Made by a program: the position numbers and the translations under genes | Part shown: in pieces, positions 24,272 through 25,794 of the stretch | Layout: every line of letters starts with the position of its first letter | Numbering within the stretch: the first letter of the stretch is position 1 | Assembly (NCBI GenBank): GCA_937944095.1 | Contig: CALEAC010000094.1 | Span: forward strand, 1-34,196 | DNA length: 34,196 nt | From: an uncultured Saprospiraceae bacterium | GTDB taxonomy: Bacteria; Bacteroidota; Bacteroidia; Chitinophagales; Saprospiraceae | Direction: 5' to 3' | Notes under the pieces: generated by a model | Database searches by the model: none | What the model saw: only the letters and a program-made list of their open reading frames with translations | What the model was told of the DNA's origin: nothing

Positions 24272-25156
24272 CTAATTTAACATTCTGGCTTTTAGAATAC
24301 GGACATCCTTTTCTGGCTTATCGTACTTATCAGTGTCCACACTAGAAATTTTTTCCATGACATCATAGCCGATTAACAATCTTCCAAATACAGTATATTC
24401 CCCATCTAACTGAGGTGTTCCCCCGTATTCTAGGTATTGTTCGATTTGTTCGTCTTTATACTCGAACAACTTCTCTTCTCGTATCCTTTTTAACTTCTGC
24501 ATATCTAAGGCCCGACCCTCTACGATGTAGAATTGTGACCCTGATGATTTCTTCTTGGGGTTCATATCATCTGGCATTCTTGCTGCGGCTACTGCGCCTC
24601 TGACATGTATAAGGTCGTTACTTATTTCATTTTTGATTTCTGGAGGTTCTGGGAGTCTTTTGCCACTATTCCTAGACTTATTATCACCACCCTGTATCAT
24701 AAATCCATCTATGACTCGATGGAAAATAAGACCATTGTAGAATCCCTCTTCGACTAGCTTGGTAAAGTTTCTTAGATGAATAGGCGTCTCTTCGCTGAGC
24801 TCCATTATGAGATTACCCATGGTCGTTTCTAGGTGTACGACGCAGTTTGTAGGTGCTGCTACGACCAATTCTTTTGTTCGAGTCGCAATTTTGCCATTGC
24901 TCTCGGCGTCTAGTCTGACCTGATGCTTACCAGACTCTAAGAAACAATGTGCTAGTTCTCTTGCTGATGAGACCTGCTCATCATTAACCCACCAAGTATA
25001 GGTCGTTGCGTTCTTGGATGTATTCTGAAAGTCTATTGCAGCAGGCAGTTGGAAATTGTCTTCTTTGATGACAAAATCCGCATACGGCTTAGAGCAGCTG
25101 CCTAGTAACAAGGCAGCCGCACCTAACCAAATCTTATTTAGTTTCTGAAGTATCAG
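24272..25156 (-). CDS. Cyclophilin-type peptidyl-prolyl isomerase lipoprotein with PKD-like domain; non-ATG start
   Basis: The mature part has a PKD-like Ig fold (about residues 25-95, with IDFQNTSKNATTYTWW). A cyclophilin domain follows (about 105-294) with GLIFHRVIDGFMIQGGD, SSGSQFYIVEG and EYTVFGRLL. Translating from the first possible TTG (25111) gives only six residues, MLLGSC, before the lipobox cysteine, too short for export. Upstream the frame is open and encodes ILQKLNKIWLGAAALLLGSC, a proper lipoprotein signal, but it contains no ATG, GTG or TTG. I extend to the CTG at 25156, whose last two bases form part of the TGA stop of the preceding gene; ATA at 25153 or ATT at 25132 are alternatives. 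It is probably a periplasmic folding enzyme anchored by lipid. Confidence 0.85.
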   Translation of the reverse strand: MILQKLNKIWLGAAALLLGSCSKPYADFVIKEDNFQLPAAIDFQNTSKNATTYTWWVNDEQVSSARELAHCFLESGKHQVRLDAESNGKIATRTKELVVAAPTNCVVHLETTMGNLIMELSEETPIHLRNFTKLVEEGFYNGLIFHRVIDGFMIQGGDNKSRNSGKRLPEPPEIKNEISNDLIHVRGAVAAARMPDDMNPKKKSSGSQFYIVEGRALDMQKLKRIREEKLFEYKDEQIEQYLEYGGTPQLDGEYTVFGRLLIGYDVMEKISSVDTDKYDKPEKDVRILKARMLN

Positions 25157-25794
25157 TTGACTTTAGAAATTTTCATTTTTACATCTTTTACGGGTCTGTC
25201 TGCCTGACCTTTCTGCACTGCTGCAATCTTGTCTATAACATCTAGACCTTCTACAACCTCTCCGAACACAGTGTACTCATTATCAAGAAAAGGTGTACCA
25301 CCTACTTTCTCATATCGAGCGATATCCTCAGGAGAATAGGTGATGCCTTTTTGTTTTGCTAAGCCTGACAATTCGGCTGCCGTCACTGCTTTTCCATGTA
25401 CAATGTAGAACTGTGATCCAGAAGATTCTTTAGTCGGGTTACTTGGCCCTCCTGTACGCGCAGCTGCAAGAGTCCCCTTAAAGTGGTAAGCACCTATCTC
25501 AGCTGGCGTTCTATAACCAGGTCCGCCCATACCTAATCTTTTATCAGGTGCTGCACCTTTAGAATCGGGATCTCCACCTTGGACCATGAATTCATTGATA
25601 ACTCTGTGGAAAAGAAGATCATCGTAAAATTTATTATCGACGTGCTTCTTAAAATTGTCTCTGTGCTGAGGCGTGCTGTCATATAACTTGACCTTCATGT
25701 TTCCGTAGTCTGTTTCTATCAGAAACAACTCTTGCTTAGGTGAACAGGCTATCGCCAACATCGTCACACATAAGATCAGTAATGCATTTTTCAT
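25153..25794 (-). CDS. Cyclophilin-type peptidyl-prolyl isomerase lipoprotein
   Basis: This 213-aa protein has a lipoprotein signal (MKNALLILCVTMLAIACS, lipidated Cys17), so it is anchored in the envelope. The cyclophilin core shows DLLFHRVINEFMVQGGDPDS, GTLAAART, SSGSQFYIVHG and NEYTVFGEVVEG, the binding and catalytic segments for proline isomerisation of exported proteins. An insert that includes AAELSGLAKQKGITYSPEDIARYEKVGG separates two core strands and is typical of the Bacteroidota variant. The next gene is also a cyclophilin lipoprotein, and the two overlap by 4 bp, so the pair probably arose by duplication. Confidence 0.95.
   Translation of the reverse strand: MKNALLILCVTMLAIACSPKQELFLIETDYGNMKVKLYDSTPQHRDNFKKHVDNKFYDDLLFHRVINEFMVQGGDPDSKGAAPDKRLGMGGPGYRTPAEIGAYHFKGTLAAARTGGPSNPTKESSGSQFYIVHGKAVTAAELSGLAKQKGITYSPEDIARYEKVGGTPFLDNEYTVFGEVVEGLDVIDKIAAVQKGQADRPVKDVKMKISKVN

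Follow-up and report, generated by a model that had tools for sequence, protein, structure and literature searches.

A cyclophilin lipoprotein gene of Saprospiraceae probably read from a near-cognate start codon, and apparent ATC/ATT starts of ruvC in related genomes

The cyc1-cyc2 locus

The window, that is, the whole stretch of DNA analysed (34,196 nucleotides), is contig C94 of G000, a fragmented MAG of an uncultured Saprospiraceae bacterium (82.9% complete, 271 contigs). Three consecutive genes on its minus strand are considered here: cyc1, cyc2, and a ROK-family gene.

25153..25794, minus strand: cyc1, cyclophilin lipoprotein gene ahead of cyc2, beginning with ATG and ending with TGA at 25155-25153
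24272..25162, minus strand: cyc2, PKD and cyclophilin lipoprotein, stop-to-stop frame of 296 codons
24860..25045, minus strand: PKD domain of cyc2, profile match
24284..24838, minus strand: cyclophilin-type PPIase domain of cyc2, profile match to PF00160
23519..24268, minus strand: next gene after cyc2, ROK family / polyphosphate-glucose phosphotransferase, beginning with ATG

The body of cyc2 matches PF00160 with an E-value of 1.6e-39 and 136.1 bits, against a curated cut-off of 21.7, and keeps FHRVIDGFMIQGGD and GSQFY, which we take to be residues with roles in cyclophilin-type PPIases; PPIase activity is predicted. The ATG starts of cyc1 and of the ROK gene are kept in most genomes compared for cyc2.

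The 5′ end of the cyc2 frame consists of an in-frame TAA, then AGT CAA CTG (25156) ATA (25153) CTT CAG AAA CTA (25141) AAT AAG ATT (25132), then TGG TTA GGT GCG GCT GCC TTG (25111) TTA CTA GGC AGC TGC, with the lipobox Cys codon TGC at 25096-25094. Between the TAA and TTG 25111 there is not a single ATG, GTG, or TTG. The codons that might serve as starts, scored with an upstream-context matrix built from 288 conserved ATG starts, and the features around them are the following.

25154..25156, minus strand: CTG, the start put forward in the original prediction; context at the 53rd percentile
25151..25153, minus strand: ATA, the favoured start; context at the 58th percentile, third-position mismatch class as in ruvC
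25139..25141, minus strand: CTA, as far from the lipobox as is usual for starts in the genus (Cys residue 16); two anticodon mismatches, context at the 25th percentile
25130..25132, minus strand: ATT, an alternative start; good context (74th percentile), uncharged 12-residue signal
25109..25111, minus strand: TTG, the sole ordinary start, giving MLLGSC; context below all 288 references, at the tip of the predicted hairpin
25094..25153, minus strand: lipoprotein signal peptide ending at the lipobox Cys, for a start at ATA; from the codons read
25094..25120, minus strand: predicted hairpin (10 bp, loop of 7 nt) where the signal peptide is encoded, z −3.3 versus shuffles

The cyc1 TGA (25155-25153) overlaps CTG 25156 as CTGA and has its last letter in common with ATA 25153 as TGATA. 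The distance from stop to start is then −4 nt for CTG and −1 nt for ATA, an overlap of the kind by which coupled pairs are recognised. With either codon the product carries two Lys and an LLGSC lipobox (read by eye), the Cys being residue 20 (ATA) or 21 (CTG), and thus has the charged n-region, hydrophobic core, and lipobox Cys within 30 residues that characterise bacterial lipoproteins; a start at TTG 25111 removes them. The original prediction had described this signal as lying in frame with the cyclophilin body, with no ATG, GTG, or TTG between the upstream stop and the signal and only MLLGSC, too short for export, from an ordinary start, and each of these points was reproduced here, the codon reading being exact. 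By its context and by the loss of the signal, TTG 25111 appears disfavoured. We favour ATA 25153 over CTG 25156 as the probable start because the other cases met in the genus, the ATC and ATT of ruvC described below, are third-position mismatches. When the signals are aligned ungapped (by eye), it is CTA, not ATA or CTG, that falls at the old genus TTG position. We also considered whether the cyc2 start holds a conserved RNA structure and discarded the idea, only one (L015) of the 27 orthologous regions folded having z < −3.

cyc2 in related genomes

The genus comparison set comprises 14 Saprospiraceae genomes, namely G000 and 13 others. cyc2 is present in 12 of these 13, always adjoining cyc1, and the one genome in which it is missing (G012) is 53% complete. 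Among the 13 genomes with cyc2 the start is TTG in eight, GTG in one, and ATG or GTG in G008, and three have no usable ordinary start: the window's genome and the sister species G011 and G001. G001 does contain a TTG, from which the Cys would be residue 9; in the TTG-start orthologues of the genus it is residue 16-17. Outside the genus, where the 17 best-scoring loci were cut, ATG stands at this place in all 16 readable ones. Since these loci all have ATG and the genus mostly has TTG, the ATG of cyc2 appears to have been lost at the base of the genus or early within it. A search of orthologues for an in-frame ATG had been proposed in the original prediction as one of its tests, and the outcome, ATG throughout the outside loci, mainly TTG or GTG in the genus, and none usable in three of 13, is in its favour. 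In the nine TTG/GTG orthologues of the genus the cyc2 start lies 0-22 nt past the cyc1 stop (by eye).

Between G011 and G001, 94 of 294 cyc2 codons differ and 72 of the differences are silent, giving a dN/dS of 0.059, which indicates purifying selection. Only one codon differs among the 19 leading to the Cys, versus 93 of 275 in the rest (about six expected, binomial p 0.004). As a control for such a frozen 5′ end, 41 orthologue pairs were taken, and four of the 26 genes measured had at most one difference in their first 19 codons; the frozen end is also met in some ordinary genes and is not unique to cyc2. The comparison of sequences by itself establishes the lack of ordinary starts, its conservation across species, and the purifying selection in the sister pair.

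Lipoprotein genes in general do not share the trait. In the genus DNA surveyed, 50 of 52 lipoprotein-like ORFs have an ATG, GTG, or TTG 13-35 codons before the Cys; the two exceptions are the cyc2 genes of the two sister species (2 of 59 under looser limits). The window's own cyc2 was excluded by the filters of both surveys, having a Lys inside the ten-residue hydrophobic window.

ruvC without an ordinary start

The decisive and clearest case for ATC/ATT starts in the relatives, as judged from sequence, is the DNA-repair gene ruvC. The gene was found in 12 of the 14 genus genomes, and in six of these (G000, G011, G001, G008, G003, and G005) no ATG, GTG, or TTG occurs between the upstream stop and the conserved KIIG(V/I)DPG.

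L230-L234 and L237: ruvC of the six genus genomes, apparent ATC/ATT start, no ordinary start ahead of the core

In all six an ATC (five genomes) or ATT (G008) sits exactly four codons ahead of the conserved Lys, and this is the only invariant amino-acid column among the twelve upstream of that Lys. The gap from the stop to the ATC/ATT is as short as two codons in G005 and three in G008. The first ordinary codon of the G000 gene is codon 36; a start there would cost the RuvC profile match its first 22 residues, among them the Asp of GVDPG, which we take to be the catalytic Asp known from E. coli RuvC. The other six genus genes have TTG (three, with an additional ATG farther upstream in G009), GTG (one), or ATG (two). 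Outside the genus, ruvC was found in 58 of 59 genomes searched; the best 28 loci were cut, and the 25 readable ones have ATG (16), TTG (six), or GTG (three), with none lacking an ordinary start.

A tree of three joined proteins, from which G001 and G008 were dropped for missing data, places G000, G011, G003, and G005 together (support 0.989), beside G006 and G013. The ruvC tree joins G001 to G011 (100/98) and G008 to G000 (87/88), its deeper order being unsettled. A clade is thus supported for four of the six genomes, and the other two are placed through their ruvC pairing. The simplest reading of these sequences would be a single origin of the ATC start and its maintenance in one clade. The ruvC loci of G011 and G001 share an unbroken identical stretch of 86 nt (54 nt ahead of the ATC, 32 nt starting with it), although the coding body has a dS of 0.84; part of this stretch may be promoter.

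Other genes and frequency

Further candidates were met in G000 and, for era, in G002.

L202 (G000, ATC) and L208 (G002, ATT): era; TTG, GTG, or ATG at this place in relatives
L073:2001-4919, minus strand: uvrA of G000, ATC candidate, no ATG/GTG/TTG before the conserved N-terminus or signal peptide
L120:2476-5151: bamA of G000, ATC candidate, no ATG/GTG/TTG before the conserved N-terminus or signal; G000 only
L176:588-1625: isoprenyl diphosphate synthase of G000, ATC candidate, no ordinary start before the conserved N-terminus or signal
L141:14229-15455: FemAB-like gene of G000, ATT candidate, no ordinary start before the conserved N-terminus or signal

The 12 era loci of the genus have ATG (three), TTG (five), or GTG (two), the remaining two being those of G000 and G002, both without an ordinary start; in G000 the first ordinary codon would cut off the P-loop, and G002 falls outside the ATC/ATT ruvC group. 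For uvrA, the eight other loci read all have ATG, whereas in G000 no ordinary codon precedes the Walker motif, and its true start there seems less clear-cut than that of ruvC. The G000 cases of era, uvrA, bamA, the isoprenyl synthase, and the FemAB-like gene come from one 83%-complete MAG.

In 772 kb of G000, 424 ORFs were kept and 21 of them have at least 25 codons ahead of the first ordinary start; six of the 21 (ruvC, era, uvrA, bamA, the isoprenyl synthase, and the FemAB-like gene) were judged by eye to lack a start before the conserved N-terminus or signal. Leads of this length were found in 5 of 204 ORFs from G002 and G009, 4 of 173 from other clade members (two of them prfB), 0 of 89 from the rest of the genus, and 2 of 108 from other organisms. 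None of these was taken, by eye, as start-less, with G002_L142 and the control L068 doubtful. The difference between 6 of 424 in G000 and 0 of 466 in the genus gives a Fisher p of 0.011, a post hoc figure that depends on judgements by eye and omits the 108 ORFs of other organisms. The homology baselines were computed without antisense shadow ORFs. The control L068 (3759-4299, from an Oscillospiraceae MAG) has 38 coding-like codons before its first ordinary start and could be a similar case or a broken gene. Two frames that open only past a programmed frameshift site (L159 14853-15888 and L160 8489-9524, reverse-strand coordinates), presumably release factor 2 with its known programmed frameshift, were left out of the counts.

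When 392 genus genes were tested against their orthologues, eight were flagged, of which three (about 1%) were judged real: cyc2 of G011 and of G001, and the FemAB-like gene of G000. At the position of a partner's ATG no excess of ATC was found in G000, where ATC is outside the 12 commonest codons; this test is noisy because ungapped offsets are often off by one or two codons. Given three real cases in 392 and no ATC excess, near-cognate starts are probably a minor habit of these genomes, rare though commoner than usual, and not a changed code. For comparison, CUG is put at 0.024% of bacterial initiation codons (PMC11497404).

Initiation machinery

The initiator tRNA is ordinary (CAU anticodon, CGGG-CCCG stem) in G003, G005, G008, G009, and G013, the first three of which are members of the ATC/ATT ruvC group in which a changed one was looked for and not found. 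The initiator tRNA gene of G006 (L286) has a mismatch in place of one G-C pair of the anticodon stem. The gene was not found in G000, G001, G011, G004, and G010, runs off the contig in G002 and G012, and is represented in G007 by 21-nt pieces only. Its absence from G000 means little, since an RF00005 search of that genome gave just 15 tRNAs.

IF3 was read in 12 genomes. Within the motif PPV(A/V/C)KI-D(Y/F)NKF (L090-L101), the five members of the ATC/ATT ruvC group among these 12 have Gln (four) or Glu (one) where the seven others have Ile; the neighbouring Tyr presumably corresponds to a fidelity site of E. coli IF3. We regard this change as a lead, a clade-specific candidate behind a relaxed choice of start. 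A literature search for the IF3 variant Y75N gave no paper. The infC gene of the genus itself (L090-L101) has a TTG start in all 11 loci read of 12. Bacteroidota have been described as having an A-rich upstream context and no Shine-Dalgarno sequences (PMC6847099), and initiation in such a setting may be less dependent on the codon.

Discussion

It is quite probable, on the sequence evidence given above, that cyc2 is a functional gene whose translation begins at a near-cognate codon right at the cyc1 stop. Two marks of a non-canonical start are found here, the lack of any ordinary start before an essential N-terminus and the conservation of that lack in relatives (cyc2 in 3 of 13, ruvC in 6 of 12). 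A start other than ATG, GTG, or TTG, the central point of the original prediction, is well supported by the orthologues and by the other genes of the group. In the mechanism we propose, a ribosome or 30S subunit that finishes cyc1 at the TGA would probably re-initiate at cyc2 using the ordinary initiator tRNA. It would do so at ATA 25153, which overlaps the stop, or with lower probability at CTG 25156, and the product would carry the complete lipoprotein signal. Because the genus start had moved earlier from ATG to the weak TTG, cyc2 expression was probably already low, and three species would then have drifted on to a kind of codon that IF3 normally rejects. Initiation in the cell at near-cognate codons, the choice among them in the window, the coupling to cyc1, and the dependence on IF3 are what we infer from this pattern. 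In E. coli the output of CUG is given as about 0.86% of that of AUG (PMC11497404, citing Hecht 2017), and IF3 was reported to disfavour weak third-base pairs in vitro, such as AUU with CAU (PMC10158994); for these reasons cyc2 output might be very low.

The original prediction put the start at CTG 25156 and linked it to translational coupling. Coupling fits the placement of the nine orthologous starts just past the cyc1 stop, but CTG is not established as the start, ATA being at least as good. A start at CTG would imply descent from an ancestral TTG that overlapped the stop, with the new codon working by coupling. The CTGA overlap, a codon one letter off the genus TTG, a change that is synonymous in cyc1 (AAT to AAC), and a context at the 53rd percentile all agree with this. 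However, changes of start from UUG to CUG were reported as very rare (1 of 2,468; PMC5622118), no other genus gene examined shows clear use of CTG while ATC and ATT recur, and no TTG overlapping the cyc1 stop in this way was seen by eye among the orthologues, so we regard a CTG start as unlikely, if still the foremost of the alternatives. Of the other two codons named in the original prediction, ATA 25153 is the one we favour, and ATT 25132 leaves the signal without a charged residue.

A sequencing error or frameshift had been named as the alternative to a rare start. Single-base changes are possible that would create an ordinary start 13-30 codons ahead of the cyc2 Cys, and the fragmented MAG comprises 271 contigs at 83% completeness, so a base-call or assembly error could hide such a start. 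This is weakened because G011 and G001, mutually consistent, likewise have no usable ordinary start and because cyc1 ends at about the position of its relatives (by eye), which speaks against an indel; the six ruvC orthologues, moreover, have the feature in common, and we consider an error improbable. We give still less credence to a loss of the signal, with cyc2 decaying or made only in a cytoplasmic form from TTG 25111. That codon is indeed the first ordinary one, but its context is below all references and it lies inside the predicted hairpin, the frame stays open over 296 codons and still encodes a full lipobox signal, and cyc2 of the sister pair is under purifying selection, signal included. 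A fusion of cyc1 and cyc2 by frameshifting or stop readthrough, suggested by the abutting frames, is hardly credible: every cyc2 keeps its own lipobox signal, and the frame relation varies between species (three phases, by eye), for which reason a programmed frameshift was ruled out.

With translation of cyc2 from a near-cognate codon as the preferred reading, a broader one suggests itself, in which a Saprospiraceae clade has relaxed start discrimination and AUC, AUU, and AUA are inherited working starts for several genes, core genes such as ruvC, era, uvrA, and bamA among them, perhaps tied to the change of Ile to Gln or Glu in IF3. We consider this plausible, if somewhat short of probable. 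If it is true, near-cognate starts would form a small but regular share of the starts used in the lineage, and the AUC/AUU ruvC running through several species, together with the separate era and cyc2 cases, would be natural test material, letting IF3, the initiator tRNA, and coupling be probed for start fidelity where Shine-Dalgarno sequences are rare. Gene finders do not call non-canonical starts. Essential proteins of such genomes may then carry truncated N-termini in annotation or be missed.

Comparison with known systems

Experimental characterisation is available for very few non-canonical starts (PMC5472188), and in the open-licence literature we found no paper on AUC/AUU or other non-AUG starts in Saprospiraceae or Bacteroidetes, or on AUC in ruvC. 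The best parallels are infC, which encodes IF3 and starts with AUU in E. coli and AUC in Streptomyces, and Streptomyces sigR, with GTC in 32 of 34 species and GTT in two, a gene of low expression that was misannotated; in both, the non-canonical start is described as keeping expression low under IF3 (PMC5472188). By analogy, a weak start would hold cyc2 expression under that of cyc1. The genes discussed here resemble infC in having, in an ordinary gene of the chromosome, a near-cognate start of the kind that IF3 rejects (PMC5472188), and differ in that the infC start autoregulates IF3, whereas cyc2, ruvC, and the others are unrelated to initiation and infC of this genus itself has TTG. They resemble sigR in the conservation of a non-canonical start within a genus (PMC5472188). 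Unlike sigR, a single gene with an experimentally proven start and a strong ribosome-binding site, they are several and are known from sequence alone, in a host belonging to the Bacteroidota, which rarely use Shine-Dalgarno sequences.

In termination-reinitiation pairs, described with the overlaps ATGA and TGATG (PMC6728339), the same two geometries occur as CTGA and TGATA in cyc1/cyc2, the difference being that the described overlaps carry ATG. The cyclophilin-type PPIase lipoproteins of Bacteroidota have the same PF00160 domain after a lipobox signal, in tandem with a second cyclophilin, and the only difference found in cyc2 is its start codon.
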